Positions 2,620 through 63,893 of a stretch of 64,000 nt of DNA are shown here, piece after piece (positions within the stretch are counted from its first letter, which is position 1; every line of letters begins with the position of its first letter). The notes below the pieces were generated by a model that saw nothing but the letters and a program-made list of their open reading frames with translations, was not told the DNA's origin and ran no database searches. A program made the translations under genes and the position numbers. This DNA comes from Ricordea florida (taxonomy: Eukaryota > Cnidaria > Anthozoa > Corallimorpharia > Ricordeidae), in NCBI GenBank assembly GCA_949710005.1, contig OX453272.1:41081957-41145956 (forward strand), written 5' to 3'.

Positions 2620-3242
2620 ATTGTTCGTCTCTGTTTAAAGCTGGCCATACTCAGAGTGGAGTGTACTCTGTAGACCCAGATGGTCAAGGAGCCTTCAATG
2701 TCTACTGTGACATGCGCACTGACGGTGGAGGTTGGACTGTGTTTCAGAGAAGACAGGATGGATCTGTTGACTTCTATCGGGGATGGAACGACTACAAATC
2801 AGGCTTTGGTCAGCTGACTGCTGAGTTCTGGTTAGGAAACGACAAGATCCACAGACTGACGGCCAGTAGAGCCAGCTCTCTACGAGTGGAGCTGGAGGAC
2901 TGGAGCGGAGTAAGGGCGTATGCTAAATATGGCAAGTTTAGTGTTGGTGATGAACAGGCAAAGTATCGACTGACAGTTGGCTCATATTCAGGATCAGCAG
3001 GAGATTCGGTAGCATACCATAATAATATGGCGTTTAGTACCAGAGACAGAGATCATGACGCGGACATCAGCAACTGTGCTGTACGATGGACTGGTGCCTG
3101 GTGGTACAAGCGCTGCCAGTACTCTAATCTAAACGGTCAATACTTAGGAAACAAACATGACCTCAAAGGAGTCCGCTGGAATAAATTTAGAAGCAATTTG
3201 TCTCTAAAGTTTAGTGAAATGAAACTGAGGCCGTCACTTTAA
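2620..3242 (+). CDS. Lectin copy 1, exon 4: fibrinogen-related C-terminal domain
   Basis: The terminal exon encodes a complete fibrinogen C-terminal (FReD) domain and stop. It begins with two bases that complete a GAT codon with exon 3, giving [10 protein letters not shown]. Hallmarks: [46 protein letters not shown] (the calcium-site region), SNCAV, GAWWY and SNLNGQYLG. In ficolins and tachylectins this domain binds acetylated sugars. The 60 C-terminal residues differ strongly from other copies, with KRCQY after GAWWY and NKF after VRW, while the first 133 are nearly invariant. No break is visible, so copy 1 is likely functional if its 5' half is intact. Confidence 0.9.
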
Positions 3243-7595: not shown

Positions 7596-8706
7596 TTCAT
7601 CCTCGTGTTTTTCTTGATCCGGGACCAATTTACGTCAAAGAAATGACCAACATCACACTGCCAAAGTGTCACGTGACAGGTTACCCATCTCCAGTTGTGA
7701 CATGGAGCAGAGCGGTTGGTCAGTTACCCCAGAGGAGGGTACAGAGTAAACATGATCAAGTTAAGATATTTGATGTTCAGAAAGCAGATTCTGACACTTT
7801 CTTCTGTAAAGCGTCCAACCTCCTGGGAGATGCTGTAAGTCACACGATTTTGACAGTAGTCTCACTTCCTAAGTTCACTTTCAAGCCTCCTTTTAAGATG
7901 ACAGCATTTATAGGCGAAAATCTGAGGTTAAACTGCAGGGCTACTGGTGATCCACAGCCAGCCATTGGTTGGAAGAGACAAGGCGCACAACTCCCCGTGG
8001 GAAGGACCCACAAGAATAATGGCGCGTTTATTATTAGTGATGTGAAAGTAGGGGATGCTGGGACATACATATGTGTGGCTGTGAGTGCAGGAGTGTTTGA
8101 CGTGGAGGCTGTTACTAACATTCATGTGGAAAAAAAAGATCGTGACCCAGATGGTTAAAGAGCCTTCAGTGTCTATTGTGACATGCGCACTGACGGTGGA
8201 GGTTGGACTGTGTTTCAGAGAAGACAGGATGGATCTGTAGACTTCTATCGGGGATGGAACGACTACAAATCAGGCTTTGGTCAGCTGACTGCTGAGTTCT
8301 GGTTAGGAAACGACAAGATCCACAGACTGACGGCCAGTAGAGCCAGCTCTCTACGAGTGGAGCTGGAGGACTGGAGCTGAGTTAGGGCATATGCTAATAT
8401 GGCAAGTTTAGCGTTGGTGATGAGCAGACGCAATATCGACTGACAGTGGGCTCATATTCAGGATCAGCGGGAAATGCGTTAGCACACCATATTAATATGG
8501 CGTTTAGTACAAAAGACAGAGATCATGACACAGAAAGCGGAAACTGTGCTGTCGTATTTACTGGTGCATGGTGGTACAGCCATAACTCAAATCTAAACGG
8601 TCAATACCTGGGAAACAAAGATGAAAACAGAGTAGTCCGCTGGCATCATTTTAGACGCAGTTTTGTCTCTTAAGTTTAGTGAAATGAAACTGAGAGCGTC
8701 ACTCTA
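7596..8706 (+). pseudogene. Lectin copy 2, Ig2-Ig3 fused to decayed FReD, intron 3 missing
   Basis: Ig2 and Ig3 are open and well preserved up to about 8130 (VEAVTNIHV). The sequence then passes through an A-rich joint directly into the FReD at DPDG, with no intron and without the first 17 or so FReD codons. The joint keeps the frame, but the next codon is TAA where intact copies have CAA. Further damage: TGA at 8378-8380 in WSG, a one-base loss at GCTAATATGG near 8395 and a shift near 8665. The FReD tail still differs from other copies (WWYSHNSN, lacking the usual Cys). It was probably made by a genomic deletion, since other introns of this copy remain. Confidence 0.85.
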
Positions 8707-22300: not shown

Positions 22301-24991
22301 TGACTGTATTTTGATCTCTTTTTGGAAACACCTCAATTCTTACAGCCAAACAACACTAATTTAGCTGTATAACGCGAACACAACCTAACAATTGATAAAA
22401 AAATAGAATGCTTCCCGAAAACTCACCGAATTTTGAAATGGCGCCATGTTGGACGTATTGAGCTTATTAATTTGATAACTGTGTCGGACTGGTATGCAAG
22501 CGATGTTTCACACAAGCAACCGGTGGTGCAATGGCTCACTATTAAACTGATGATCTATTTCGTAAATCAACGTAGCTCGTGTAACTCTAAAAGAATGAGT
22601 TTTATGGTTCAGTTTTAGTGACCTCTTTACCAAACTTGAAACGAACACAGTATAGAAGGATAAGAAACAAAGTTAAGTCAGTCAGGAGACATGCCAAAGT
22701 AATCTTGGAGTATCTAATTAATGGAACTAAAAGAATGAAGCTCTCCCTTTAATTTCCCTTCAAATGATGCGCCAATCCAAAGTCACGAATTTTTTTTTCG
22801 CTCACTACTTGTGCAGGAATTTTTTTTTCAGGTGAACCCCTCTGCACGAATTTTTTTTACTACGTGTGAAAAAGTCACAATTGGACCTTCCTTGTGCTCG
22901 AATTTTTTTTTTTTACCTTTTTCCTTGCATGAATTTTTTTTCTTGGCACTTTCCCTTGCATGAATTTTTTTTTGTTTTTTTCCCCACCCCCCCATCACTT
23001 TTCTAATGGTCCGTCCCTAACACCATATGCCTTATTCCAAAATGGCCGCCTTTTATATATTCTTTAGTTTTTATTTCAATTAGACCTTGATGCCTCGTTC
23101 AAGGTAAAATGTTCTTTTGAATTTTAGCTTCAGAACGATGCATCAAGGGAGAATTTAAATAAAAATAAAAATAAAAATAAAAGAAAAAATAAAAGAAATT
23201 TAAATGGCGGCCATTTTGAAATAAGGTGTATACGGATTATACCTGCTGTTTACTCAAGATTTGTCTTCCTCTTAGCTTGCGCGCTATTTTAATTTTTCTC
23301 CAGTTTATCCACGTGTTTTCCTTGATCCGGGACCTATTTACGTCAAAGAAAGAAGCAACATCTCCCTTTCAAAGTGTCATGTGACAGGTTACCCATATCC
23401 AGTGGTGACATGGAGCAGAGCGGTTGGTCAATTACCTCAGGGGAGGGTACAGAGTAAAGATGGTCAACTTAAGATATTTGATGTTCAGAAAGCAGATTCT
23501 GACACTTTCTTCTGTAAAGCGTCCAACCTCCTGGGAGATGCTGTAAGTCACACGATTTTGACAGTAGTCTCACTTCCTAAGTTCACATTCAAGCCTCCTT
23601 CTAATATGACAGCATTTATAGGCGAGAATCTTACGTTAAACTGCAGCGCTATTGGTGATCCACAGCCAGTCATTGGTTGGAAGAGACACGGAGCACAACT
23701 CCCCGTGGGGAGGGCCCACAGGAACAATGGTGGGTTGATCATCAGAGATGTGAAGGCAGAGGATGCTGGGACATACATATGTGGGGCTGTGAGTGCAGGA
23801 GTGTTTGGCGTGGAGGCTGTTACTAAGATTAAAGTGAATTACCATCAGGGTAACGTGTTCCTGGTTAAGTGTAAGATGTAATACGAATTTTAACTGTTTT
23901 GCTGTCCAAAATTAGTTGTTTTTATTAACGTTGTCATTCCCGCATGGAAACTCGGAATCTTTAGTAATTTTTCTTCAAGATAGAGGGAAACAGTGGCACA
24001 TTATTTGCTCATCTGCTAACCGGCGAGATTAGAAATCAGAGAAAATAATTGTTTCACTATATAGCAATAGAGCAACCTCAGCCACTCTAAAGAGACGGTG
24101 AAACTTTATTGCTAAATCAGGTAGTTAACAGGAGACAGTGAGCAACACAAAGTTCATTTCGTTATAAATTTAGAATGTGCCGACGTTGCTAATGCTACGC
24201 ATCTTGATCTAAATACCCGGGTCCTGACCAGCTATTGCCAAGGAGCAATTTCAAAAACAAATTGTGCTTTACACATTTGAAACGTTTGTCTTTGAAGAGC
24301 TGAATTTTTCCAATTAGTCAAATCAATGATGTCTTAAAGCGGGACGAATTACGTTGTTATTGCAGATTGTTCATCCCTGTTCAAAGCTGGCCATACTCAG
24401 AGTGGAGTGTACTCTGTAGACCCAGATGGTCAAGGAGCCTTCAGTGTCTACTGTGACATGCGCACTGACGGTGGAGGCTGGGCTGTGTTTCAGAGAAGAC
24501 AGTATGGATCTGTAGACTTCTATCGGGGATGGAACGACTACAAATCAGGCTTTGGTCAGCTGACTGCTGAGTTCTGGTTAGGAAACGACAAGATCCACAG
24601 ACTGACGGCCAGTAGAGCGAACTCTATACGAGTGGAGCTGGAGGACTGGAGCGGAGTAAAGAGGTATGCTAAATATGGTAAGTTTAGCATTGGTGATGAA
24701 CGGGCGCAGTATCGAATGACAGTGGGTTCATATTCAGGATCAGCAGGAGATGCGTTAGCATACCATAATAATATGGCGTTTACTACAAAAGACAGAGATC
24801 ATGACCAGTACAGCAGCAACTGTGCTGTAAAATACACTGGTGCATGGTGGTACGAGAGCTGTTATTACTCTAATCTAAACGGTCAATACTTAGGAAACAA
24901 ACTTAACAGCAAAGGAGTCAACTGGTATCCATTTAGACAAAATTACTTGTCTCTAAAGTTTAGTGAAATGAAACTGAGACCATCACTTTAA
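19140..24991 (+). CDS. Lectin copy 3, intact: membrane collagen-Ig-fibrinogen protein
   Basis: Join of exons 19140-19338, 21356-22036, 23304-23849 and 24366-24991, giving 2052 nt and a predicted 683 aa. Order: type II membrane helix (about residues 12-29), short coil (31-52), Cys pair (111, 118), 28 Gly-X-Y triplets (121-204), Ig1 (205-293), Ig2-Ig3 (294-475), FReD (476-683). All introns are phase 1. The collagen should trimerise the chain and present three lectin heads outside the cell. The closest known design is the cnidarian ficolin-like proteins; the role in microbe or symbiont recognition is inference. Weak points are an acceptor without a good pyrimidine tract at exon 2 and a GTAACG donor at exon 3. 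Confidence 0.8.
19577..19659. mobile_element. 83-bp hairpin MITE with 8-bp target duplication
   Basis: It is almost wholly palindromic: TAGTCTCCTTCGCAGCCG is mirrored by CGGCTGCGAAGGAGACTA with arms of about 37 bp and an 8-base loop. It is flanked by CTTTGTGG at 19569-19576 and 19660-19667. The other lectin copies have a single CTTTGTGG here, so this is an insertion unique to intron 1 of copy 3. The 8-bp duplication suggests hAT or a related superfamily. Confidence 0.85.
20243..20621. mobile_element. MITE with about 40-bp inverted ends (GGCCCGATTC)
   Basis: The left end GGCCCGATTCTGATGCCGTA with the following CTTTTCATGAGCCGAAC is mirrored at 20583-20621. A third, internal copy of the TTTTCATGTGCCGAACTTAA motif lies near 20405. 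It is inserted in the CTCGAGTA...GTCGCGGC part of intron 1, which is continuous in other copies. Probably Harbinger-type. Confidence 0.7.
21356..22036 (+). CDS. Copy 3 exon 2: collagen (28 triplets) and Ig1
   Basis: The frame is open from the acceptor to the GGTAAG donor at 22037. It encodes a Ser/Thr/Arg-rich spacer, [15 protein letters not shown] with two Cys suited to inter-chain bonds, Gly-X-Y repeats from [16 protein letters not shown] to GIKGEPGKS, then Ig1 ([29 protein letters not shown]). The acceptor is AAAAAAAG/AGGGAGC; the pyrimidine tract and the upstream CAG/TAG present in copies 5 and 6 are lost. Splicing here deserves RNA confirmation. Confidence 0.8.
22788..22972. repeat. Array of six GAATTTTTTTT T-tract motifs
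   Basis: Six copies of (G/C)(A/G)NGAATTTTTTTT, several preceded by CTTGCATG or GCACG, spaced roughly 20-45 bases apart. The array is present only in intron 2 of copy 3, replacing the short CTACTGACAACTGACTACG segment seen in copy 5. Confidence 0.7.
23023..23234. mobile_element. MITE shared by intron 2 of copies 3, 4 and 5
   Basis: The left end CATATGCCTTATTCCAAAAT with GGCCGCC is inverted at the right end (GGCGGCC, ATTTTGAAATAAGGTGTATA). The interior is AT-rich with (AAAAT)n. The same element lies at about 37376-37562 and 47650-47836; copy 1 lacks it. Confidence 0.75.
23304..23849 (+). CDS. Copy 3 exon 3: Ig2-Ig3
   Basis: Acceptor TTTTTCTCCAG, then an open frame from [10 protein letters not shown] through Ig2 ([24 protein letters not shown]) and Ig3 ([28 protein letters not shown]). 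The exon end differs from other copies: NYHQ and donor G/GTAACG at 23850 instead of NYS and GGTGAGT. Frame and phase 1 are kept. Confidence 0.85.
24366..24991 (+). CDS. Copy 3 exon 4: fibrinogen-related domain
   Basis: Acceptor TTGTTATTGCAG, then [19 protein letters not shown] and the full FReD to TAA at 24989. Calcium-site region [17 protein letters not shown]. Copy-specific residues: KYT, ESCYY after [16 protein letters not shown], and one extra codon (FRQNY). Otherwise it is near-identical to copies 1 and 5 over the first two thirds. Confidence 0.9.
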
Positions 24992-33108: not shown

Positions 33109-34268
33109 ATGACGTCGTTTAAGAAGACTCGGGAGTTTTTAACTGGATTTTATTTGACCGAAATCATTTCTGACGAAGAATTCGTGCTCCTCTATGACTG
33201 CAGCTTTTCAAAGAACTTAGAACTACCGTATGAAGACTACGAAAGATTTGACCTCGAAGAAATGGCAGATTCAGAGTGTAGAGCAGAGTTCCGTGTGAAT
33301 AAACGCGACCTACCACGTTTAGCAGAATGTTTACAAATACCTGACACTTTTGTATGCAACCAGGGCTCCGTTTGTGAGGGTATGGAAGCTGTCTGTATGC
33401 TACTTCGAAGGCTTTCATACCCTTGCAGGTATTCAGATATGATAACAAGATTTGGCAGACCAGCCCCCGTGTTGAGTATGGTGACTAACAAAGTAATTGA
33501 TTTTGTCTATAACACCCATGGATGGAGAATCAAGCAATGGAATCATGACCTTCTCAGTCCAGCACGTCTACAAACGTATGCAGATGCTGTGTACGCAAAA
33601 GGTGCAGCCCTTGAAAATTGCTTTGGATTCGTGGACGGCACTATTAGACCAATTGCACGACCAGATGAAAACCAGAGAGTTGTCTATAATGGACACAAAA
33701 GGGTACACGCCCTGAAATTTCAGTCTGTTGCACTACCTAATGGCATCATAGCAAATATGTATGGACCTGTAGGTGGGTAAAACATTTTAATCAACTTTAA
33801 TCAATACCCACAGAGTCTTTTAAAACTTAAAACTGTACACTGTTATGAATTTCAGAAGGCAAGAAGCACGATGCAAGCATGCTGGGTGATTCTGGACTGC
33901 TTCACGAGCTACAGCAGTATGCATATTCTCCAACAGGACATCCTATGTGCATATATGGGGACCCTGCATACCCTTTAAGGGCACAACTGCAAGCCCCTTT
34001 CAGAAATGTAGTTCTCACTCCACAGATGCAGGCATTTAATTCTTCAATGAGCTCAGTAAGGAGTTGTGTGGAGTGGCTCTTTGGTGATATAGTTAATTAC
34101 TTTAAATTTATTGATTTTAAGAAAAACCTGAAAATTGGGCTAAGTAGCATTGGAAAACTTTACATAGTATGTGCTGTGTTACAAAATGCTCTGAGCTGTT
34201 TATATGGCAATCTCACCTCAGAGTTTTTTGATCTACAACCACCTACATTAGAGGAGTATTTCGCTTAA
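33109..34268 (+). CDS. Harbinger DDE transposase
   Basis: Two exons, 33109-33772 and 33856-34268. The donor GTGGGT and acceptor TTTCAG remove an 83-bp phase-1 intron and give GPVEGKKHDASML. The start ATG (MTSFKKTREFLTG) is the first in frame. The catalytic triad is visible: D in GFVDGTIRP, D in YGDPAYPLR and E in SCVEWLFGD, with a V-x-Y-N-G-H-K-R-V-H-A-L-K-F-Q block typical of the family. Total 358 aa, in the usual range. It would cut and join the ends of the surrounding transposon. Confidence 0.85.
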
Positions 34269-38157: not shown

Positions 38158-39641
38158 GTGAGTCAGAGTAATGAGTTCCTGGTTGAGTGTAAGATGTAAT
38201 AAGAATTTTAACTGCTTTACTGTCCAGAGTTAGCTGTTTCTGTTTACCAAAGCAGTGGTTTTTCTCGTAATCTTATTGGCTCTTGAGACTCAGAATATCG
38301 AAGGAAGTAGTGGTAGATTATTCATTCAACTGCCAAACGGCGAGTTAAATATCTCTACAGCCACTATTCACCGACATTGAAGAGAATAATTGTTTCAGTA
38401 TATACCAGTGAAGCAAACCCAGCCACATTAAAATGACGGTTTAACTTTATGACAAAAACAGGCCGTTAACAGTAGAAAAACGTTGGCAGTTGCACAAGGC
38501 TTTCCCAGGACGCGTGTCACTATTAACCTCTTTGTAGGTGAATAGTGTTGAATATCCCGAGATAGTGAGCAGGCAGACAAAGTTTATTTTACAATAAATT
38601 TGCAATGGGCTGACGCTGAATATAATGAAGTTTGATTTAAACTTTCAGCCTGGATTTTTGCATTTCTAGCCTTGTGATTGGCTCACTCTATTTTGGTTAT
38701 CAGCTCGTATCGTTTTCACCATATATGGCAAATGATCACGCCAAGTGATGCAAGCTAAACTGAACATTTGTGCGAAATTGGATGAAGGAAGAGTAGCGTT
38801 TATGAGTTTTCTACAGAAGAAATGCAAGAACAAATGGAAAATACCGTACAATACCAAGAAAGCTAAAAACTTTGATTTAAGGTTAATTCGGGCTACCTAT
38901 CTCAAGTTTTCCTCCAAATAAATAAAGGAATTCTAAGTCTTTTATAAGTCGAAATGTACGAAGCTCTTATAAGCATAAAACAACAACAACAACAATAAAG
39001 TTTACAAAAAGTTATAGTAAGTTTTCGGCGAAACCGGCGTTATAAATGAGCAAAAAACCTAATTCGAGCCTAACGGAGTAATTTGTCCACATCGCCAAGG
39101 AAAAACGACGAAAGTTTCACCAACGGTACTTCAATAACATTGATAGGAACTGTATCAAGTCTGTAACGGGACTCAATAAGCCCCACACATGCAGGTCATA
39201 AAGTCCATTACAGCAGTTACACCAAAACACTGGAAACGTTCTTGTTGAAACGTGCCTTCGCTCGCCGTCTCTGTCACATAGCGTTCAAAGGTTTCCGCGT
39301 TAGTTTCACAACGGCAAAGCAGAGGTGCACAATTATTACACCCTCGATGTCTTAAACATTACACACATTTTAAAACTTTTCCAACGTGGATTTAGCTCCT
39401 TTACTTCTTCGGTGTCGTTGGCTACTTACCATTTCATATCCAACACGCGCTCTTGGAATAATTGTTAAATATTGAAGTTTATGCTACTCATCGATCGTAA
39501 TTTAACTACTCGGATCCTGAACAGCTAGTTGCACTTTACACATTAGAAATGGTTCTACTTAAAGAGCTCATGATCACTTAGTTTTCCAATTGGTCAAATC
39601 ATTGATGTCTTAAAGCGAGACGAATTGCGTTGTTATTGCAG
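38158..39641 (+). other. Intron 3 of copy 4
   Basis: Shares long stretches with intron 3 of copies 1 and 5; a block at about 38320-38990 is private to this copy, with (CAA)n near 38980-38995. No gene recognised. Confidence 0.5.
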
Positions 39642-40255
39642 ATTGTTCAGCCCTGTTCAAAGCCGGTCATACTCAGAGTGGAGTGTACTCTGTAGACCCA
39701 GACGGTCAAGGAGCCTTCAGTGTGTACTGCGACATGCGTGGAGGTTGGACTGTGTTTCAGAGAAGGCAGGATGGATCTGTAGACTTCTATCGGGGATGGA
39801 ACGACTACAAATCAGGCTTTGGTCAGCTGACTGCCGAGTTCTGGTTAGGAAACGACAAGATCCACAGACTGACGGCCAGTAGAGCCAGCTCTTTACGAGT
39901 GGAGCTGGAGGACTGGAGCGGAGTAAGGGCATATGCTAAATATGGCAAGTTTAGCATTGGCGATGAACAGGCGCAGTATCGACTGACAGTGGGCTCATAT
40001 TCAGGTTCAGTAGGAGATGCGTTAGCATACCATAATAATATGGCGTTTAGTACAAAAGACAGAGATCATGACACGGTCAGCAGCAACTGTGCTGTAGAAT
40101 AGACTGGTGCATGGTGGTACAAGACCTGCCATCACTCTAATCTAAACGGTCAATACCTGGGAAACAAATATGACGACAAAGGAGTCCGCTGGTTTGAATT
40201 TAGAAGCAGTTTGTCTCTAAAGTTGATTGAAATGAAACTGAGGCCGTCACTTTAA
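39642..40255 (+). pseudogene. Lectin copy 4 exon 4 (FReD) with nonsense codon
   Basis: Complete length apart from a 9-bp in-frame loss after YCDMR (TDG missing). The Trp codon after NCAV is TAG at 40100-40102. After the stop the tail is still readable as WWYKTCHHSNLNG and is again different from all other copies. The final residues are [11 protein letters not shown]. Confidence 0.85.
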
Positions 40256-43495: not shown

Positions 43496-43697
43496 ATGAC
43501 TGTTCAGAAAAACAGTCGGTCTTGTTCGCTCGGTACTCTCATTTCTGTTATGTCGGTTCTGTTTTACTGTGCTGGGTTTATCAGAGTTGAAATAAAGTTG
43601 AACCAGCATGAAGAGAGAATGAACGATTTGGAAGAAGCCGTGAAGAGCAGAATGACCGCAATGAACAGAGCGAGTGATTTGACCTCCAGTACAAACG
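43496..43697 (+). CDS. Copy 5 exon 1: membrane anchor and coil
   Basis: [20 protein letters not shown], hydrophobic to CAGFI, then a charged coil. It has one extra codon (RMTAMNRAS versus RMTTNRAS in copy 4). Donor ACG/GTGAGT at 43698. Same conserved Met as the other copies. Confidence 0.8.
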
Positions 43698-46600
43698 GTG
43701 AGTTGTTGAATCTTATTCTTTTTACCAAAAAAAGATCTGGACAACAAACAGATCAACTAAATAACAGTAAACAGCTACACAGTTGCAAACCAACTTTCTT
43801 TGTTAGGCGGCATGTTAGATATGCAGTAAGTGATATTAAGAGGCTTCAGCACCAACTTTGAGTCAAATGTGAGCATTTTTACGGCGGCCTCGTCCTCGCA
43901 ATGAAATAAAATTCGGTGAGCTAAAGATTCTTTATTTGCTTTGTGGCGGACAGAGTGAATTACGATCAAACACAATGAACATGATACGCTATTTGACTTC
44001 TGTACAAGCACGGAAGTGGGACGGTAGTTGTTAGGATAATAATAATAATAATAAAAGCTTTTTTTATCCTGGAGTAAAATCTATCAGCATTTAAAAAAAT
44101 GCTGGTCTTAACAAGATGTCCAGTAATAAAATCTAAATTAAAATTTCAATACATAATTTACCTTACTCTACTTTTAAAATATATCAACATGCAATTGGTA
44201 TAAAAAATTAGACTGAGCATTTATGATTCTTAATGTCAGTTTCTTTCAGATGTTTAAAGAGTTGTAGTTTAAAAGAAGATAGTTTAGTTGATTTTCTTAG
44301 TTCTGTAGGTAGCGAGTTCCAGTCACTTGCCCCAGCATGTTTGAATGTTCTTCTTCCTGATAGAGTTTTGGCTCGGGGTAGGTCGATAATGCCACTGTTC
44401 CGTAATGCTTTGCCGTGGAGTTCGCTTCTACTGATAAAATAACCTTCTAATTGCTTTGGACAATTTTGCTTATTTACAATTTTAAAAATATAAATAAATC
44501 GAAGAAATCTTCGCCTGTTATATAGTGTTAGTAGCCCCAGGTTGTTTCTCATATGTTGTGTACAGGTAGTTCTATTGGTCTTGAGAATTACTCTCATGGC
44601 TTGGTTTTGTAGTTTTTCTAGTTTGTCGGACAGAGACTTATTACTTTCATGCCATATAATGCATCCGTAGTCAATCACTGGAAGAATTGTTTGTTTGTAG
44701 ATCCTTAGGAGTATCTTACGCTCTAAGAATCCTGCAAGTCTGCCTAGAAGTGCTAATTTAGGTGAGACTCTTTTGATTAGTTCCGTTATGTGGGGTTCCC
44801 AGGTTAGGTGGCTATCGACAGTCACTCCCAGGTATCTGAAAGTGTCTGTTACGTTTAGTTTATCGTTGTTTAGGTAGATTTCAACGCGTGATGTGGGCTT
44901 CTTTGTTGCTAGGACCATCGCTTCCGTTTTCTTTGTATTTGGAATTAAATTGTTTCTCTGAAGCCATGTAGAGATTAGGATATATAATCACAAACATATT
45001 CGCTACCATTGGCAGGTTAAATCAGCATCTGCTGTATTCTAGGGCGATACTCGTTTAGGGTTTTGTAGAGTCACCTTAATTTCCTTTTAACATAGCAGTA
45101 TACCAACACAGCATGTACAGTTCGATTGTTATAAGGTTATAAACTGAATACGCATAGGGTTTGTTCCTTGGGCAACACTGGGCCGTCGCCAGTATTAAAC
45201 TCGTGCCTTTAACATCGTTGTTGGAGTAGGTTTTCTTGGTTTCCTTTTGATGTGTTATGATCGATGTGGGCATCTGTTTGATGCCTTCTCAGTGTAACGT
45301 CATTCAATGATCGCGTTGTCCATAGCATCAAGGAACAACCACATTGATCGCGTCCAGTGATTAGCGATGACGGTAAAAATGCTGTAGATTGTTGCCCTTG
45401 CTCAAACAATATTTTTGCACGACCTCACAAGCTGCATAGCTTTATACTTTTATAGTATTTACTCGAGTAGCCGCGGCACCAATTGAATTTTTCGTGCGTC
45501 AAAGGGGACGCTTGTTTAAAATTTGACGCAACAAAGAAATCTTCTCTTGTAATTCAGCAGAATGTTTTCTTTGTTTTATACGAAAATTATTCCAGTGAAA
45601 GAAACAACAATCAAAAGACTTCGTTTAATTATTGTCACATTTTGCTCTTCTCTTCTTTCTCTGAATCTATCGGCTCCAGAATTGGTGAGAACGCCTCTTC
45701 TACATTTGAATCTGTGCATTCTAAAGGATTTGCATACGGTTTACTCAAGATATCCAACTGTGCCTCACCGGGCCATCAGGGGCAGCGCCTTTTGATGTTT
45801 TGACGCCAAATGCGATGCTCGGTTGTGGGCTGCGCTTATTCGAGTAAATACGGTTATTTTTGTTGTACTCAACTTTTTCTGGCTGGCAAACCTGCTAACC
45901 GAAGTATGATTTGAATTTCTGAATTTTGGAACGACTGGATGATTCATAGTGCTTTCCCAAGTTGCTTTATAACATGAAGGAGTGTCTGGAAAGAGCGGAG
46001 GCTATGGGAAGAAAGTTTTGCACTTGTTGGGCCTGCTTGATCAAGCCATGACTGTTCATAAAAACTCGTAAAATAATACTTTCTTTTCAAAGGAAAAACT
46101 TTGACAAGTCTAAGCGACATTTTTAGTTATTCACCTTGTTTGGATTTCTTCTTAATTAAAGACATAGTTCAGGTAAAACAAATTATATTTTATTTCTTTT
46201 GTAGAAAAAGAGGAAGTATCATACAGCAATCACAAACAAAGACGGCAAGTTGACTCAACCAGCAACACATCGGCTTCTATAAGCAAAACAGAACTTTTTA
46301 TGAAATTAAACAAACTTCTGTCAGATTGGAAACTACAGCTGTGCCAGACAAAAGGAGGAACGTGTGCTACTGGTCCTCAGGGCCCTCCAGGTCCCCTAGG
46401 GCCCAGGGGAGAAAAAGGAGCCCGGGGAAGAAGAGGTCATAGAGGATGGCATGGTAAAAGTGGACAACAAGGAATTATGGGACCTGCAGGCTTAAAAGGA
46501 GAAACTGGACTCAAAGGTGAAAAAGGAAACACTGGGGAGCGTGGCATGCCGGGAATAAAAGGGGAACCTGGTAAATCGATTTCTGCTCCTATTGTTATTG

Positions 46601-49600
46601 CTTCTCCTTCGACAAAGACAGTAAATGAAAGCAAGTCTGCGTTATTTCAGTGTTCAGTTAGCGGTAACCCTGAGCCCACAGTAATGTGGACAAAGCAAGG
46701 TAGCCAGACAGTTATCAAAGGATCAGCGGACTCACGTGGAGAGCTGCATTTAATGAACACGACAGCAAATGACTCAGGCTTGTACCAGTGCACCGCGACA
46801 AACATCTTAGGACAGGCGAAGGGCTTGGTACGTCTAATTGTGAATGGTAAGACTGTGTAATATAGTATCGTGTCTTTTTTCACTATCTTTCATTTTTAAA
46901 ATAGACGGCAATGCGCTATGGAAAAGACAAGAAAATATCCTGATCTTTAACTCTTTGTTTAGAAAGGACGGCAAAATTAGCCTTTTTTCAGTATTATCAG
47001 CCAGCAAATATTCAGTGCCAATTTGCAAAACTGCACACCTTTCAAATCCTTAGTACGGCTTTAATGCAACTGCAATCATTATTTCACTAAAAAACCATGT
47101 AAACAGGCACCTGACTGTATTTTGATCTCTTTTTGGAAACACCTCAATTCTCACAGCCAAACAACACTAATTTAGCTGTATAACGCGAACACAACCTAAC
47201 AATTGATAAAAAAATAGAATGCTTCCCGAAAACTCACCGCGTTTTGAAATGGCGCCATTTGGACGTTTTGAGCTTATTAATTTGATAACTCTATCTTACT
47301 GGTATGTAAGCGATGTTTCACCCAAGCAACCGGTGGTGCAATGGCTCACTATTAAACTGATGATCTATTTCGTAACTTAGTGTAACTAGTGTAACTCTAA
47401 AACAAAGAGTTTTATGGTTCAGTTTTAGTGACCTCTTTACCAAACTTGAAACGAACACAGTATAGAAGGATAAGAAACAAATTTCAGTCAGTCAGGAGAC
47501 ATGCCAAAGTAATCTTGGAGTATCTAATTAATGGAACTAAAAGAATGAGGCTCTCCCTTTAATTTCTCTTCAAATGATGCGCCAATCCAAAGTCTACTGA
47601 CAACTGACTACGTTTGCCGTTGCGTGACACTGTACGTTGTTTCGTAACACCATATGCCTTATTTCAAAATGGCCGCCTTTTATATATTCTTTAGTTTTTA
47701 TTTCAAGTAGACCTTGGTGCCTCTTTCAAGGTAAAATGTTCTTTCGAATTTTAGCTTCAGAACGATGCATCAAGGGAGAATTTGAATAAAAATAAAACAA
47801 ATTTAAATGGCGGCCATTTTGAAATAAGGTATATACCTGCTGTTTACTCAAGATTTGTCTTCCTCTTAGCTTGCGCGCTATTTTAATTTTTCTCCAGTTC
47901 ATCCACGTGTTTTCCTTGATCCGGGACCTATTTACGTCAAAGAAAGAAGCAACACCTCCCTTCCAAAGTGTCACGTGGCAGGTTACCCATCTCCAGTGGT
48001 GACATGGAGCAGAGCGGTTGGTCAGTTACCTCAGGGGAGGGTACAGAGTAAACATGGTCAACTTAAGATATTTGATGCGCAGAAAGCAGACTCTGACACT
48101 TTCTTCTGTAAAGCGTCCAACCTCCTGGGAGATGCTGTAAGACACACTTATTTGACAGTAGTCTCACTTCCTAAGTTCACTGTAAAGCCTCCTTCTAAGA
48201 TGACAGCATTTATAGGCGAGAATCTGACGTTAAACTGCAGCGCTACTGGTGATCCACAGCCAATCATTGGTTGGAAGAGACACGGAGCACAACTCCCCAT
48301 GGGGAGGGCCCACAGGAACAATGGTGGGTTAATCATTAGAGATATGACGGCAGAGGATGCTGGGACATACATATGTGTGGCTGTGAGTGCAGGAGTGTTT
48401 GACGTGGAGGCTGTTACTAACATTAAAGTGAATTACCGTGGTGAGTCAGAGTAATGGGTTACTGGTTGAGTGTAAGATGTAATAAGAATTTTAAGAGTGA
48501 ATGCACACAAAAATCAAGCAAAATCGATAAATCGCGGCCACAACTCAAAACCTAACCTACCCTTATTTTGAGTCTAAAGGAAGATTTTAGTGATATTAAG
48601 AAGGTTCTGGGGTTTATTTTTTGAGTGAGATCGAATTTTGTGAGAAAATCGAGATTTTCGATTTCGACGGTTTGACGCCTCAATTTACTGCGAAATTTAT
48701 TGGTCTAAAAAATTGCCTCGCGACGGCCGAATAAACTTTTTACGGACGATTTTATACTTAATTCAGCAAAATCAAATAGCTGACAGTAATCTAAGAAACA
48801 TTTCCGGATTAAATACGGATTTCGTGACAAGGTTCAAGAGCCTTGTTTAGTAGGTACTTGACAACAGGGTGATTTAGTGGCAAAATTAAACTCCAATTCT
48901 ACATAAGGGGCCATTCTTCAAATAGCCCCAAAATCAGATTTTGAGCTCTAGAGATGTTATATTTCACCATTTCATATATGTTCAATAAAGTTTTTGAGCG
49001 AGCGCCTCAGATTTAGTCGACCAATTTGCTCAATTTCATGTAATTTGCTCCGTGATGCGGTGATGCGATAGTTCAGTTGATCCCGATCATGTTACTTTAT
49101 CACGTAAACAAAGTCACCGATGAACCAGGAATGGGACAACAGGAATTATTTTTGACCATATTTGTTCAAAGTCAGGCTTACCTTGATTAAGAGTTGGGTT
49201 TCCGATCAAAAATTTGCTTCTGGGATGCACTTGTTTTGTCTTTCAAACTCCGTTACGCACGACCTAAACTACCGGTCGTTGTCTATTCAAAACACCGGGA
49301 AAACAATGAAGATAGACCAGAAAATACAGCAGGAACGTATCCCAGCAGCTTAAGAATAATTATTGTTACTTTTGACACAGTCTAGGTTTTAAATGTCCTC
49401 GAACTACAAGCCAAATCCACAGGCTCTTTGACAGCTAGGCAACGTGAAATCAGAGGTTAACGCACGCCGTTGACTGTGTTGCGTGACATCACGCCACTAA
49501 TTGCGTCCCGTATCCTGTCTAAAATAATACGTTTATATCCTGAAAAATTGAAATTTTGAAAGGTGCATCCATTCTTTTTTTTTTAAATAGCACAGTTCGC

Positions 49601-52600: not shown

Positions 52601-53878
52601 TGTAGGAGTACGTTTTCGGCGAAACCGACGTAATAAATGGGCAAAGAACCTAAATTCGAGCCTCACGCAAGAATTTTTCCACATCGCCAAGGAAAAACCA
52701 CGGATGTTTCACCAATGATACTTCAATAACATTGATAGGAACTGTATGAAGTCTGTAACGGGACTCAATAAGCACCACACATGCAGGTCATAAAGTCCAT
52801 TACAGCAGTTACACCAAAACACTGGAAAAGTTCTTGTTAAAACTTATCTTCGCTCGCCGTCTCTGTCACATGGCGATCAAAGTTTTCCGCGATAGTTTTA
52901 ACGGCAAAGCACAGGTGCACAATTATTACACTCTCGATGTCTTAAACTTCACACACATTTTAAAAATTTCCCAATGCGGATTTAGATCCTTTATTTCGTC
53001 GGTGTGGTTGGCTACCATTTCATATCCAACACGCGCTCTTGGAATAATTGCTAACTATTGAAGTTTATGCTACTCATCGATCGTGATTTAAATACTCGGA
53101 TCCTGACCAGTTAGTATGTAATTTGTAAGGAATAATTTTAAAATTCTGTTGCGCTTTGCAGATTAGAAAATGTTCTCTTTAAAGAGCCCACTTACTTTTC
53201 CAATTGGTCAAATCATTGATGTCTTAAAGCGAGACGAATTACGTTGTTATTGCAGATTGTTCGTCTCTGTTTAAAGCTGGCCATACTCAGAGTGGAGTGT
53301 ACTCTGTAGACCCAGATGGTCAAGGAGCCTTCAGTGTCTACTGTGACATGCGCACTGACGGTGGAGGTTGGACTGTGTTTCAGAGAAGACAGGATGGATC
53401 TGTTGACTTCTATCGGGGATGGAACGACTACAAATCAGGCTTTGGTCAGCTGACTGCTGAGTTCTGGTTAGGAAACGACAAGATCTACAGACTGACGGCC
53501 AGTAGAGCCAGCTCTCTACGAGTGGAGCTGGAGGACTGGAGCGGAGTAAGGAGGTATGCTAAATATGGCAAGTTTAGCATTGGCAATGAACAGGCGCATT
53601 ATCGACTGACAGTGGGCTCATATTCAGGATCAGCAGGAGATGCGTTAGCATACCATAATAATATGGCGTTTAGTACAAGAGACAGAGATCATGACCAGTA
53701 CAGAAGCAACTGTGCTGTACTATGGACTGGTGCATGGTGGTACAATATCTGTCGTTTCTCTAATCTAAACGGTCAATACTTAGGAAACAAACATGACGCC
53801 AAAGGAGTCAACTGGCAACAATTTAGAAGCCATTTGTCTCTAAAGTTTAGTGAAATGAAACTGAGGCCGTCACTCTAA
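43496..53878 (+). CDS. Lectin copy 5, intact but with very large introns
   Basis: Join of exons 43496-43697, 46205-46846, 47898-48440 and 53256-53878: 2010 nt, about 669 aa (two residues fewer if the alternative exon-2 acceptor at 46210 is used). Domain order equals copy 3, but the collagen has 23 triplets instead of 28. No stop or frameshift in any exon and all splice sites are canonical. Intron 1 holds a 0.95-kb LINE and intron 3 a 3.9-kb foldback element, so the primary transcript would contain a long double-stranded hairpin. Coding integrity after these insertions suggests either recent insertion or continued selection. Confidence 0.78.
44032..44980 (-). mobile_element. 5'-truncated LINE in intron 1 of copy 5
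   Basis: Minus-strand element ending in an (ATT)n tail at 44037-44054. Flanking TTAGGATA on both sides (about 44031 and 44975) is a target duplication, since copies 4 and 6 have a single GTTAGGATATTTAAGGAC here. It contains the polymerase fragment at 44208-44918. Confidence 0.75.
44208..44918 (-). CDS. LINE reverse transcriptase C-terminal part
   Basis: 236 codons downstream of the catalytic box: [38 protein letters not shown] and [20 protein letters not shown] are the thumb and connection motifs of non-LTR retrotransposon polymerases. The N-terminus including the F/YADD box is absent because of 5' truncation. The end [15 protein letters not shown] is also typical. Not functional alone. Confidence 0.75.
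   Translation of the reverse strand: MVLATKKPTSRVEIYLNNDKLNVTDTFRYLGVTVDSHLTWEPHITELIKRVSPKLALLGRLAGFLERKILLRIYKQTILPVIDYGCIIWHESNKSLSDKLEKLQNQAMRVILKTNRTTCTQHMRNNLGLLTLYNRRRFLRFIYIFKIVNKQNCPKQLEGYFISRSELHGKALRNSGIIDLPRAKTLSGRRTFKHAGASDWNSLPTELRKSTKLSSFKLQLFKHLKETDIKNHKCSV
46205..46846 (+). CDS. Copy 5 exon 2: short collagen (23 triplets) and Ig1
   Basis: Acceptor TTTCTTTTGTAG; a second in-frame acceptor AAAAAG lies 6 bases later. Encodes the spacer, [11 protein letters not shown], Gly-X-Y from [20 protein letters not shown] to EPGKS, then Ig1. Relative to copy 3 five triplets (the [17 protein letters not shown] region) are missing and [14 protein letters not shown] is present. Pseudogene copy 2 shares this short form. 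Donor GGTAAG at 46847. Confidence 0.85.
47650..47836. mobile_element. MITE in intron 2 of copy 5 (orthologue of 23023)
   Basis: CATATGCCTTATTTCAAAAT at the left and ATTTTGAAATAAGGTATATA at the right, around GGCCGCC/GGCGGCC. Same site as in copies 3 and 4. Confidence 0.7.
47898..48440 (+). CDS. Copy 5 exon 3: Ig2-Ig3
   Basis: Acceptor TTTTTCTCCAG, donor GTGAGT at 48441, phase 1 on both sides, 181 codons. Ig2 reads [16 protein letters not shown] and TFFCKASN; Ig3 reads [19 protein letters not shown] and GTYICVAVS. Open throughout. Confidence 0.85.
48495..52427. mobile_element. 3.9-kb foldback element with 1.5-kb inverted arms, TTAA target
   Basis: Left arm about 48495-50047, right arm about 50880-52427, near-perfect inverse of each other from end to end (for example GAGTGAATGCACACAAAAAT against ATTTTTGTGTGCATTCGCTC). 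TTAA flanks both sides (48491-48494 and 52428-52431), and copy 1 has a single TTAA at the equivalent place (1783-1786). TTAA targeting points to piggyBac or Kolobok relatives. The 0.8-kb centre has no recognisable transposase; it is T-rich with (GATTTT)n-like runs at about 50640-50880. Confidence 0.88.
53256..53878 (+). CDS. Copy 5 exon 4: fibrinogen-related domain
   Basis: Acceptor TTGTTATTGCAG and stop TAA at 53876. First 133 FReD residues differ from copy 1 at 8 positions; the last 60 differ at 13. Copy-specific residues: [16 protein letters not shown] after [14 protein letters not shown]. The region FSTRDRDHD and the Cys of NCAV and WWYNIC are kept. Confidence 0.9.
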
Positions 53879-58426: not shown

Positions 58427-60857
58427 TCTTGGCTTGGCTTCGCGAACGAAGATTTCAAGGGAGTCCACGGCGGGCGCAGGCTCGCTGATGGCTGATAAGT
58501 CCTATGCGTGATAGGCAAACCCGTCCACAGCGGCTGCAGGGGAATGTCGTATCCGGTGTGGGTGCTGTGGCGACCCTGTTCTTCCTTCTACTGCGTTTCT
58601 CCACAAGGGCGGCTCTGCGATTGTTTTCGAAGGAGGAGACTGACTGGTGGATGGTGCGACGCCAAGCCTCTCGGTTAGCGGCAAGGGCTGACCACTGTCG
58701 ATGATCGATGTGGCAGGCTGACAGGGACTTCTTGAGAGTATTTTTGTACCTCTTCTTTGGTGCTCCTCTGTCGCGGTGCCCGGAGGAGAGTTCCCCGTAG
58801 AGAGCGATCTTGGACAAACGATGATCCTCCATCCTGGAGACGTGCCCTGCCCAGCGTAACTGCGCTTTCATCAGCAAGGCCTCTATGCTGGGGACACCCG
58901 CCTGTTCAAGGACTTCCACGTTTGTGACGTAGTCGCTCCAATGGATGTTAAGTATGGAGCGAAGGCAGCGCTGGTGGAATCGCTCGAGAAGTCGAAGGTG
59001 ATGACGGTAGGTGACCCACGACTCCGAGCCGTACAGGAGTGTGGTTAGTACGACTGCGCTGTACACGCTGATCTTGGTAGCTTTCTTCAGATGCTTATTG
59101 TGCCACATTCGCTTGTAGAGTCTGCCAAACGCACTGTTTCCTTTTGCCAGTCGGTTGTCGATTTCCTTGTCGATCTTGGCATCTGAAGAGATGGTGCACC
59201 CCAGGTAGCTGAATTTATGGACTGACTTTAGTTCTGACTGGCCGATGGTGATGTGAGGAGAGCCGTACTCTTCCCGAGGTGCTGGCTGGTACAGGACTTC
59301 TGTCTTCTTCAAACTGATATCCAGTCCAAAGAGCTGCGCAGCTTCTGCAAAGCAGGAGGTTATGCGCTGCAGGGCAGCCTCAGGATGGGCAAGGAGGGCA
59401 GCGTCGTCTGCAAACAGCAGCTCTCGGACCAGCTGCTCCAGCGTCTTGGTGTGTGCCTGTAACCGTCTCAAGTTGAACAAACTGCCGTCAGTGCGATATC
59501 GTATGTAGACGCAGTCTTCGTCATCAAGGTCATCTAGTGCTCGCAGGAGCATCATGCTGAAGAAGATGGAGAAAAGTGTCGGCGCGAGGACGCAACCTTG
59601 CTTCACACCGTTGCTGATGGGGAATGGATCGGAGAGGTCGCTGCTGTGTCTAACTTGACCACGCTTGTTCTCGTGGAGCTGGATGACCATGTTGAGGAAC
59701 TTTGACGGACAGCCGAGACGTTCCAGGATTTGCCACAGACCTTTTCTGCTCACAGTGTCAAACGCTTTGGTCAGATCCACAAACGTTGCGTAGAGACCCT
59801 TGTTTTGCTCGCGGCATTTCTCCTGGAACTGTCGAAGGACGAATACCATGTCGGTCGTGCTCCTATTGGCTCTAAAGCCACACTGACTCTCTGGGAGGTG
59901 TTCGTCTGCGATGTTTGGCATCAGTCTGTTCAACAGTACCCTGGCTAGAATCTTGCCTGCGATGGAGAGCAGGGTAATCCCGCGGTAGTTGGAGCAGTCG
60001 GACTTCTCTCCCTTGTTCTTATACAGGGTAATGATGACTGCATCGCGGAGATCCTGTGGCAGCTTGCCCTGCTCCCAGCAACAAGTGAACAGCTCATGAA
60101 GTTTGGCGTGTAGCGCTGGACCCCCGTGCTTCCAAATCTCTGGTGGAATTCCGTCAACGCCTGCCGCCTTACAACTCTTCAGCTGGTCTATGGCCTTTGT
60201 GATCTCTACAACGGTTGGTACTTCATCCATTTCCGTCTTCACAGGTTGTTGGGGGATGCGAAGAATTGCTAAGTCTTGGACCTTGCGGTCAGCGCCGAAG
60301 GGCGTCTGGAAATGCTCCGACCAGCGGCTCAGGATCGACGCCTTGGCTGTGAGAAGCGACTGACCGTCTGTGCTGCGCAATGGACTCTGGACTTGGTGCG
60401 AGGTGCCATACACTGCCTTTAAGGCTTCGTAGAACCCTCTGTAGTCACCTGTGTCGGCGCAAAGCTGAGTTTCCTCTGCGAGGTCTTTCCACCACTCGCT
60501 TTGCATTTCTCGGAGCTTGCGCTGGAGAATGCTGCATGACTGGCGGAAGGCAGCTTTCTTCGCAGGACAGGACGGTTGAGCTAGGTGGGCCTGGTGTGTA
60601 GATCTCTTCTTCGCTAGCAATACCTGTATCTCCTTGTTGTTCTCGTCAAACCAGTCCCTGTTTTTCTTTGTAGAAAACCCCAAGACTTCTTCTGAAGATT
60701 GCTGTATGGAGGATTTCAGGTGCTCCCAGAACTCTTCAGGGGAAAGATCAGTAGGGCTGTTGGAGTCCTCAAGCCTAGACTGTAGGTTTGCCTGGAAGTC
60801 TGCTTTCACTTCAGCTGACTGTAAGCTGCTGATCTTGAGTTTTCTTTGGGGAGCGCC
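58427..60857 (-). mobile_element. LINE nested in the 57-bp-TIR element, 5' truncated
   Basis: The insert splits a small MITE: ACCAAACAAT precedes it and CAACAATACACTAC follows, giving an AACAAT duplication. The upstream end is cut in frame inside the polymerase ORF, so the endonuclease domain is missing. Confidence 0.7.
58455..60857 (-). CDS. Non-LTR retrotransposon reverse transcriptase with C-terminal zinc finger
   Basis: About 800 codons, open to the truncation point at 60857; the first usable start is a GTG at 60809, so the true N-terminus is lost. RT motifs: YRGITLLSIAGKILARVL, GLYATFVDLTKAFDTVSR (first Asp), GVKQGCVLAPTLFSIFF and LLFADDAALLAH (catalytic FADD). Thumb motifs: KFSYLGCTIS, LLYGSESWVTY and RFHQRCLRSILNIHW. 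It ends with FPCSRCGRVCLSRIGLISHQ, a C2H2 finger common in such elements. No internal damage. Clade not assigned (I- or RTE-like candidates). Confidence 0.85.
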   Translation of the reverse strand, partial: GAPQRKLKISSLQSAEVKADFQANLQSRLEDSNSPTDLSPEEFWEHLKSSIQQSSEEVLGFSTKKNRDWFDENNKEIQVLLAKKRSTHQAHLAQPSCPAKKAAFRQSCSILQRKLREMQSEWWKDLAEETQLCADTGDYRGFYEALKAVYGTSHQVQSPLRSTDGQSLLTAKASILSRWSEHFQTPFGADRKVQDLAILRIPQQPVKTEMDEVPTVVEITKAIDQLKSCKAAGVDGIPPEIWKHGGPALHAKLHELFTCCWEQGKLPQDLRDAVIITLYKNKGEKSDCSNYRGITLLSIAGKILARVLLNRLMPNIADEHLPESQCGFRANRSTTDMVFVLRQFQEKCREQNKGLYATFVDLTKAFDTVSRKGLWQILERLGCPSKFLNMVIQLHENKRGQVRHSSDLSDPFPISNGVKQGCVLAPTLFSIFFSMMLLRALDDLDDEDCVYIRYRTDGSLFNLRRLQAHTKTLEQLVRELLFADDAALLAHPEAALQRITSCFAEAAQLFGLDISLKKTEVLYQPAPREEYGSPHITIGQSELKSVHKFSYLGCTISSDAKIDKEIDNRLAKGNSAFGRLYKRMWHNKHLKKATKISVYSAVVLTTLLYGSESWVTYRHHLRLLERFHQRCLRSILNIHWSDYVTNVEVLEQAGVPSIEALLMKAQLRWAGHVSRMEDHRLSKIALYGELSSGHRDRGAPKKRYKNTLKKSLSACHIDHRQWSALAANREAWRRTIHQSVSSFENNRRAALVEKRSRRKNRVATAPTPDTTFPCSRCGRVCLSRIGLISHQRACARRGLP

Positions 60858-61647: not shown

Positions 61648-63206
61648 GTGAGTTGTTGAATCTTATTCTTTTTACCAAAAAAGATCTGGACAACAAACAG
61701 ATCAACTCAATAACAGTAAACAGCTACACAGTTGAAAACTAACTTTCTTTGTTAGGCGGCATGTTAGATATGCAGTAAATGATATTAAGAGGCTTCAGCA
61801 CCAACTTTGAGTCAAATGTGAGCATTTTTACGGCGCCCTCGTCCTCGCAGTGAAATAAAATTCGGTGAGCTAAAGATTCTTTATTTGCTTTGTGGCGGAC
61901 AGAGTGAATTACGATCAAACACAATGAACATGATACGCTATTTGACTTCTGTACAAACACGGAAGTGGGACGGTAGTTAGGATATTTAAGGACTTATAAT
62001 CACAAAAAATACCATTGGCAGGTTAAAATCAGCATCTGCTGTATTCTAGGGCGATACTCGTTTGGGGTTTTGTAGAGTCACCTTAATTTCCTTTTAACAT
62101 AGCAGTATACCAACACAGCATGTACAGTTCGATTGTTATAAGATTATAAACTGAATACGCATAGGGTTTGTTCCTTGGGCAGCACTGGGACATCGCCAGT
62201 ATTAAACTCGTGCCTTTAACAGCTTTGTTGGAGTAGGTTTTCTTTGTTTTCTGTTATGATGTGGGCATCTGTTCGATACCTTCTAAGTGTAACGTGATTC
62301 AATGATCGCATTGTCCGTAGTAACAAGGAACAACCACATTGATCCCGTCCAGTGATAAGCGATGACGGCAAAAATGCTGTAGATTGTTGCCCTTGCTCAA
62401 ACAATATTTTTGCACGACCTCACAAGCTGCATAGCTTTATAGTATTTACTCGAGTACCCTCGGCACCAATTAAACTTTTCGTGCGCCAAAGGGGGCGCCT
62501 ATCTAGGGGAAACGTTTGTTCAAAATTTGACGCAACAATGAAATCTTCTCTTGTAATTCAGCAGAATGTTTTCTTTGTTTGATACGAAAATATTCAAGTG
62601 AAAGAAACAACAATCAAAGCCTTCGTTTAATTATCGTCAAATTTTGCTTTTCTCTTCTTTCTCTGAATCTATCGGCTCGAGACTTGGAGATCGAGAACGA
62701 CTTCTCTACATTTGAATCTGTGCATTCAAAAGGATTTGCATATGGTTCACTTAAGATATCCAACTGAGCATCACTGAGGCCATCAGGGGCAGCGCCTTTT
62801 GATGTTTTGACGCCGAATGCGATGCTTCGTTGTGGGCCGCGCTTATTCGAGTAAATACGGTTATTTTTGTTGTACTCACCTCTTTCTGGCTGGCAAACCT
62901 GCTAACCGAGGTATGATTTAAATTTCTGAATTTTGGAACGGCTGGATGATTCATAGTGCTTTCCCAAGTTGCTTTATAACATGAAGGAGTGTCTGGAAAG
63001 AGCGGAGCTATGGGAAGAAAGTTTTGCACTTGCTGGGCCTGCTTGATCAAGCCATGACTGTTCATAAAAAACTCGTAAAATAATACTTTCTTTTCAAAGG
63101 GAAAACTTTGACAAGTCTAAGCGACATTTTTAGTTATTCACCTTGTTTGGATTTCTTCTTAATTAAAGACATAGTTCAGGTAAAACCAATTATATTTTTT
63201 ATTCAG
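61648..63206 (+). other. Intron 1 of copy 6
   Basis: A 1.56-kb intron without insertions, the most compact version of intron 1 in the window and a useful reference for dating insertions in copies 3, 4 and 5. Confidence 0.65.
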
Positions 63207-63893
63207 AAAAAGAGGGAGCATCATACAGCAATCACAGACAAAGACGGCAAGTTGACTCAACGAGTAACACGTCGGCTTCTATAAGCAAAAACGAATTTGT
63301 AATGAAAATGAACAAACTTCTCTCAGATTGGAAACTACAGCTGTGCCAGACAAAAGAAAGAACGTGTGCTTCAGGTCCTCAGGGCCATCCAGGTCCCCCA
63401 GGGCCCAGAGGAGAAAAAGGAGCCCGGGGAAGAAAAGGTCCCAAAGGAAAAAAAGGAAAAACGGGAAACAAAGGAGACAGAGGGCTTGTGGGACCACATG
63501 GTAAAAGTGGACAGCAAGGGATTATGGGACCTGCAGGCTTAAAAGGAGAAACTGGACTCAAAGGTGAAAAAGGAAACACTGGGGAGCGTGGCATGCCGGG
63601 AATAAAAGGGGAACCTGGTAAATCGATTTCTGCTCCTATTGTTATTGCTTTTCCTTCGATAAAGACAGTAAATGAAAGCAAGTCTGCGTTATTTCAGTGT
63701 TCAGTTAGCGGTAACCCTGAGCCCACAGTAATATGGACAAAACAAGGTAGCCAGACAGTTATTAAAGGATCATCGGACTCACGTGGAGAGCTGCACTTTA
63801 TGAACACGAGAGCAAATGATTCAGGCTTGTACCAGTGCACCGCGACAAACATCTTAGGACAGGCGAAGGGCTTGGTAGGACTGATTGTGAATG
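63207..63893 (+). CDS. Lectin copy 6 exon 2: long collagen and Ig1
   Basis: Acceptor TTTTTTATTCAG with a second in-frame AG 6 bases later, donor GGTAAG at 63894. 229 codons, open. LQLCQTKERTC, 28 Gly-X-Y triplets ([20 protein letters not shown] onward, with [16 protein letters not shown]), Ig1 [19 protein letters not shown] and [10 protein letters not shown]. Exons 3 and 4 would lie beyond the window. Confidence 0.85.

Follow-up and report, generated by a model that had tools for sequence, protein, structure and literature searches.

A candidate germline library of fibrinogen-like recognition heads in a CniFL-type tandem array of Ricordea florida

Ficolins bind MASP through their collagen region and start complement. 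In the accessible part of PMC5094078, most CniFLs are described as having a TMD and three Ig domains, species carry up to seven copies, and the adaptiveness of this copy number is called unexplored. CniFLs rise on Vibrio infection in Exaiptasia, according to the available portion of PMC7654579. Biomphalaria FREPs are likewise diversified immune lectins with Ig and fibrinogen domains, and the available text of PMC7588048 describes their IgSF part as variable and the FBG part as relatively conserved. For the mosquito FREP FBN8, several sites of the fibrinogen-like head (FReD) have dN/dS >1, and McDonald-Kreitman tests gave no positive selection; FBN8 is one locus compared across sibling species, not a tandem family, and the accessible part of the report gives no pocket-wide pattern (PMC2811201). 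By sequence, the best PDB match of the head analysed here is the FReD of FIBCD1 (E 2.4e-67), a membrane-anchored lectin that the available sections of PMC3908420 and PMC10825690 describe without a collagen region.

The locus described here resembles the CniFLs of PMC5094078, as far as that source is available, in combining Collagen, Ig and Fibrinogen_C and in having several copies in one species. It differs in scale, with at least 17 FReD exons in one array and at least 6 and at least 8 in two other clusters against the reported maximum of seven, and in that selection maps to one face of the head. Compared with FIBCD1 (PMC3908420, PMC10825690, in part), the heads of these three clusters (A, the home array; B; and C) keep the calcium-site Asp, Cys401-Cys414 and His382, lack Tyr431-Ala432 and Trp443, and vary strongly at the S1(2)/S1(3) positions. 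The pattern mirrors that of the snail FREPs in reverse, as far as PMC7588048 is available: here it is the face of the FBG domain that is variable, with no signal in the Ig exons beyond the null range of the FReD. Snail FREPs have one or two IgSF domains and their variability in the IgSF; here there are three Ig domains and collagen, with variability in the FReD. None of the literature matches listed deals with selection acting on the head of CniFLs, which is weak evidence of absence because most subscription journals lie outside that coverage. The array is a concrete, testable candidate for how corals tell partner algae and bacteria apart without adaptive immunity.

Anatomy of the array and its relatives in the genome

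The window (the whole stretch of 64,000 nucleotides that was analysed, G000:C1:41081957-41145956) sits inside a ~290-kb tandem array of CniFL-type genes (C1 41.08-41.37 Mb), whose layout is collagen, three Ig domains and a fibrinogen-like head. Gene 5, the only gene that was spliced, has four exons whose phase 1 joins give a 669-aa frame. Pfam, run on eight window proteins, found Collagen, three Ig stretches and Fibrinogen_C in this one chain, the domain combination given for CniFLs in the available part of PMC5094078. The coding part of the last exon begins at 53256, past an AG acceptor, and the first nine residues of the open frame (from 53228) are intron. The hydrophobic stretch at the N-terminus, recognized by eye, is a putative membrane anchor, with a cleaved signal peptide as the alternative. 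The acceptor of the collagen exon in gene 3 is unlike that of gene 5. The exons of gene 5 are:

43496..43697, + strand: exon 1, start Met (ATG), hydrophobic anchor-like segment (by eye) and short stalk; GTGAGT donor, phase 1
46205..46846, + strand: exon 2, with the collagen repeat and Ig domain 1; splice sites AG/GTAAGA; Collagen and Ig_3 by Pfam in the spliced protein
47898..48440, + strand: exon 3, with the second and third Ig domains; splice sites AG/GTGAGT; Ig_3 and I-set by Pfam, three stretches in the spliced protein
53256..53878, + strand: FReD exon (copy 5) with stop; AG acceptor, open to the stop; Pfam Fibrinogen_C 7.2e-76

There are five FReD copies in the window, two of them broken. 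Those upstream of copy 5 are:

2620..3242, + strand: FReD exon copy 1, intact
8144..8704, + strand: FReD copy 2, a pseudogene with two stops, two frame breaks and a 6-nt deletion that removes a Cys
24366..24991, + strand: FReD exon copy 3, intact and one codon longer
39614..40252, + strand: FReD copy 4, broken by TAG at a variable aromatic position (the codon equivalent to 405) and with a 9-nt deletion in TDGGGW

At copy 2 (window 8119-8160) the Ig frame reads straight into the FReD, as if the intron and the 5' end of the exon had been lost. Mobile elements recognized by Pfam lie between the genes:

58458-60857, - strand: reverse transcriptase (RVT_1)
13806-15086, - strand: DUF3504 and phage-integrase-type recombinase
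33849-34265, + strand: DDE_Tnp_4 transposase

Between the anchor stalk and the collagen repeat, genes 3, 5 and 6 have a basic site, RQRR or KQRR-Q, noted by eye (window 46205-46260, 21330-21370 and 63185-63260). It resembles a furin site, so the heads may be shed from the membrane.

A search of 538 Mb in 48 contigs returned at least 95 FReD matches in the genome. Relatives were also sought in sets of genome contigs and viral contigs, and none was found there. Cluster A has at least 17 FReD exons, counting copy 2, of which three are broken (L013, L020 and copy 2). Leaving out those three, L013 and L020 having internal stops, we used 14 (set A14): 12 heads are open to the family stop, and two (L009 and L014) stop a codon short of the family end and were truncated at that point. 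Cluster B (C1 44.86-45.06 Mb) has at least 6 FReD exons (set B6), with L023 and L026 partial, and cluster C (C7 4.29-4.37 Mb) has at least 8 (set C8), about half identical to copy 5. Clusters A and B are close relatives, with >80% identity to copy 5, which makes cluster C the more independent replicate. From FReD likeness and nearby Ig-pair exons, clusters B and C also appear to be CniFL. A 1797-codon open frame at L026 was rejected, being a run of N. Two cluster A copies 118 kb apart, L004 and L006 (C1:41150917 and 41268721), differ by 0.3-0.6% in their flanks with zero hot-spot change, and are a very recent duplication.

Rates of amino acid change in the heads

FReD variation is concentrated toward the end of the domain, as the earlier note had claimed. 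Its counts for copy 1 against copy 5 are exact, with 8 differences among the 133 residues of codons 24-156 (frame from 53228) and then 13 in 60, and the site models and simulated nulls given below place the concentration beyond chance. The five variants that it listed (KRCQY, ESCYY, KTCHH, NICRF and an altered SHN) are all present, although two come from broken copies, SHN being the product of the 6-nt deletion in copy 2. Its hot spots after NCAV, on both sides of the Cys of WWYxxC and after KGV hold up, and the list missed others: just before NCAV (396-399 in FIBCD1 numbering), in the loop ahead of KGV, and before His382 (381, with 376/378 as well).

Codon site models were fitted with our own implementation, not PAML. 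For the five window copies with stops masked, M8 exceeded M7 by a 2dlnL of 33.9-52.2 over four topologies, and the three intact copies alone gave 27.2. First-round fits, which included the nine intronic codons, gave 171.7 for A14, 63.0 for B6 and 54.5 for C8; adding L013 and L020 to A14 (set A16) also gave a strong signal (194.9). Redone with coding codons only and trees built without the hot spots, the values were 205.4 (A14), 67.9 (B6) and 73.0 (C8), with omega of 7.7 on 15% of codons, 9.6 on 8% and 6.7 on 17%, respectively. Null data were built from the first-round fits (40 runs per set), with no positive selection and with ancestry shuffled in five segments; they reached maxima of 22.7, 13.0 and 15.8. 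As these maxima are far below the observed values, recombination of the simulated kind fails to explain the signal. The expectation that dN/dS would exceed 1 at the hot-spot codons was thus borne out, with values well above 1 in three separately analysed clusters.

The same holds for pocket residues fixed beforehand from the available sections of PMC3908420 and PMC10825690 (382, 396, 405, 412-415, 431, 432 and 443). As a partition of their own, tested on the first-round trees with the nine intronic codons left in the rest class, they have an omega of 4.97 in A14 (p 5e-14 against omega 1), 2.72 in B6 (p 8e-4) and 3.28 in C8 (p 2e-4). Simple pN/pS count ratios are not clearly above 1 at these residues (0.81, 2.20 and 0.93 for A14, B6 and C8) and are 1.46, 0.99 and 0.71 when neighbours on either side are added, probably because multi-hit codons raise pS.

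Noncoding flanks gave a neutral yardstick. Median divergence over A14 pairs is 9.1% upstream (65 pairs) and 7.3% downstream (87 pairs), and over all 91 pairs it is 7.9% at four-fold sites outside the hot spots versus 50% at hot-spot codon positions 1 and 2. Hot-spot divergence exceeds that of both flanks in 90 of the 91 pairs, with the hot spots picked from the same data and any flank of no more than 100 aligned bases scored as zero. Only L004/L006, a pair of nearly identical copies, departs from this. S1-face codons therefore change amino acids faster than neutral DNA changes. The description of silent sites between hot spots as nearly identical holds only in part: across the 91 pairs the four-fold sites are about as diverged as flanking noncoding DNA, and dS between copies 1 and 5 is 0.05-0.12.

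We make no claim of positive selection on the Ig exons. Their 2dlnL of 20.2 (16 of 17 exons, leaving out L041, which has a stop) is significant by chi-square, yet does not exceed what simulations of the FReD set reached (maximum 22.7), a null that is the FReD's and not the Ig exons' own.

The S1 face and the acetyl pocket

Placed on FIBCD1 by sequence alignment rather than coordinates, the hot spots are:

53651..53653, + strand: before His382 (381); P>0.9 in A14, B6 and C8
53696..53704, + strand: 396-398, the S1(3) His396 position and those next to it; P>0.9 at 396 and 397 in A14, 397 in B6, 397-398 in C8
53720..53725, + strand: after NCAV (404, 405); P>0.9 at 404 and 405 in A14, 404 in B6, 405 in C8
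53744..53749, + strand: the two residues before Cys414 (412, 413; S1(2)/S1(3)); P>0.9 at 413 in A14, B6 and C8, and at 412 in C8
53753..53758, + strand: the two residues after Cys414 (415, 416); P>0.9 at 415 in A14 and C8, and at 416 in all three sets
53792..53800, + strand: variable loop before KGV, two residues shorter than in FIBCD1, with the Tyr431-Ala432 columns gapped; P>0.9 at 428 and 430 in A14
53810..53833, + strand: after KGV (436, 438, 439, 442, 443); P>0.9 in A14, at 438, 439 and 443 in B6, and at 436 and 438 in C8

The sites thus fall in and around the S1, S1(2) and S1(3) residues of FIBCD1, as listed in the available parts of PMC3908420 and PMC10825690, in line with the location proposed by the earlier note. 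Positive sites are denser from 396 on than before it (16/62 vs 8/147 in A14, 9/61 vs 4/147 in B6, 16/52 vs 11/146 in C8). The earlier part of the domain holds 8 of 24 positive sites in A14, 4 of 13 in B6 and 11 of 27 in C8, and some of these are far in sequence from S1 residues (246, 254, 300, 313, 328, 341-343, 349 and 363). Alignable pocket residues are among the positive sites in 5 of 8 cases in A14 (p 6e-4) and 4 of 7 in C8 (p 0.008); in B6, with 2 of 8 (p 0.08), the enrichment among model-picked sites is weak. On this alignment the positive sites appear to gather at the S1 acetyl pocket and its extension.

The fold-keeping residues, WWY among them, stay constrained. His382, Asp395, Cys401, Cys414 and Trp410 are kept in all 30 heads of clusters A-C, Trp409 in 29, and Asp393 in 28, with Glu in the other two. 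These heads have the calcium site and Cys401-Cys414 of the ficolin/TL5A/FIBCD1 FReD and lack its acetyl-binding S1 set (Tyr405, His415, Tyr431, Ala432 and Trp/Tyr443). All 30 heads, two of them broken, have gaps at Tyr431 and Ala432; His415 is kept in 14 and replaced in 16, position 443 is never Trp or Tyr, and 405 is Tyr in 18. Control FReD exons, taken from elsewhere in this genome, have Ala432 in 17 of 17, His415 in 13 and Tyr431 in 9; these controls are 17 of the 21 other aligned loci, L021, L022, L033 and L083 being of another type. In four of the 22 A/B heads a Tyr stands at the adjacent variable loop position, next to the gap, so a shifted-in Tyr is possible there.

The acetyl pocket is thus not intact in clusters A-C, and acetyl recognition is probably not the common theme of their heads; from the loop, shorter by two residues, one would predict that the ligands are not simple acetyl groups. 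Diversification of binding specificity is probably under way. The earlier interpretation, diversification of ligand specificity in an acetyl-sugar pocket, is thus partly supported: the support extends to the diversification and not to the acetyl-sugar ligand.

The same face recurs in separate clusters. A14 and C8 share 13 positive sites (p 3e-9), and sites chosen in one cluster have pN/pS of 1.17-1.84 in the others versus 0.36-0.58 for the remaining sites. Among 18 close control pairs, the replacement share is higher at the rim in 17, L080/L081 being without changes. Two of the 18 were tested, both on C9. L070/L071 has 16.5 replacement changes over 47.8 sites at the A14 rim versus 5 over 157.5 elsewhere (p 0.007 vs silent), and L072/L073 has 9.5 over 47.7 versus 3 over 152.7 (p 0.16 vs silent). 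The four C9 FReD exons gave a 2dlnL of 23.6 with 14 sites at P>0.9, which, placed by eye, lie mostly on the same rim (381, 388, 396-399, 404-405, 415-416, 431, 438 and 443-444). The C9 group is only suggestive, as this value is barely above the A14 null maximum of 22.7, a null that is not C9's own. This recurrence from cluster to cluster suggests that selection has repeatedly targeted the S1 face.

Readings of the variation

We think it likely that the CniFL tandem array is a germline library of S1-face recognition specificities, mostly without the classic acetyl contact. The predicted receptor would have a hydrophobic anchor at its N-terminus, followed by a short stalk, a collagen repeat and three Ig domains, with the fibrinogen-like head at the C-terminus. 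Such a common scaffold, probably oligomeric, would present S1 faces that differ from gene to gene, and the array could serve as a set of specificities against microbial, symbiont or other cell-surface ligands. The heads, about thirty in number, are similar and vary at only a few listed positions, so that ligand arrays could read out the binding of each variant. A broader version is more speculative, and we hold it only tentatively: several FReD clusters that were duplicated separately (a related pair on C1, one on C7 and one or two on C9) would have made the same rim hypervariable, those on C1 and C7 after losing the acetyl contact, giving antibody-like germline tips on a fixed collagen-Ig stalk that tell symbionts, pathogens or non-self apart.

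The most serious competitor, to which we give perhaps one chance in a few, is that the varying face is not a sugar site and instead evolves as the contact surface for a host partner or an antagonist, as in self, gamete or colony recognition or in escape from microbial inhibitors. The loss of the classic acetyl contacts in clusters A-C and the large Ig-domain array on C15 of the same genome speak for such a contact. The varying sites coincide, however, with the known carbohydrate-binding face of homologues; the C9 exons also match, and two of those four keep His415 and Tyr431. The rise of CniFLs on bacterial infection in Exaiptasia, as far as PMC7654579 is available, likewise argues against this reading.

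Somewhat less probable is the retention of ancient variants while gene conversion homogenises the remainder, in place of recurrent selection for new residues. The copies arise by duplication and are mosaics: divergence in the 5' and 3' flanks is uncorrelated (rho -0.19, p 0.31, in the 30 of 91 pairs with enough sequence), and L001 and L010 differ by 3.1% downstream and by 21% over 100 aligned upstream bases. Unequal exchange or conversion therefore also shuffles the copies, which speaks for this explanation. Yet silent sites outside the hot spots are about as diverged as the flanks and not further homogenised, the tracts would have to be a few codons long, and keeping old variants would itself require selection for diversity.

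Local hypermutation, or a mutagenic retro-element (DGR-like) that writes the hot-spot codons, seems improbable. In its favour, the changes are packed into sharply defined spots, frequently with two or three to a codon, and in A14 third positions are about four times as diverse at hot spots as elsewhere (0.31 vs 0.07). Within the A14 hot-spot codons, however, third positions vary less than first (0.52) and second (0.45) positions, in the same order in B6 and C8, and the third base of codon 404 is A in all 14 A14 copies. We read this as protein-level selection and not as raised mutation alone; conserved codons also stand between the hot spots, and the changes are not limited to one base. Relaxed constraint, by which surface loops of redundant duplicated heads drift neutrally, has in its favour the three broken copies of 17, the two that stop one codon early and the tolerance of loops to change, but is the least credible explanation given omega of 6.7-9.6, hot-spot change at about six times the flanking noncoding rate, and an effect that persists when the set is limited to near-intact copies (A14) and is seen again, at the same columns, in a separate cluster.

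Two other gene groups were noted in the same genome. On contig C15 (~6.94-7.64 Mb), Ig-pair exons form a large array; they share ~30-34% identity with the CniFL Ig exon, many sit in open frames of roughly 380-440 codons, and they may possibly be another recognition family. There are also 61 GFP-family matches; one of these exons has fluorescent proteins, of coral origin, as its best PDB matches, and taken with the CniFL architecture this indicates a coral. Most of the 61 are on C11 (~9-19.7 Mb), many with stops.
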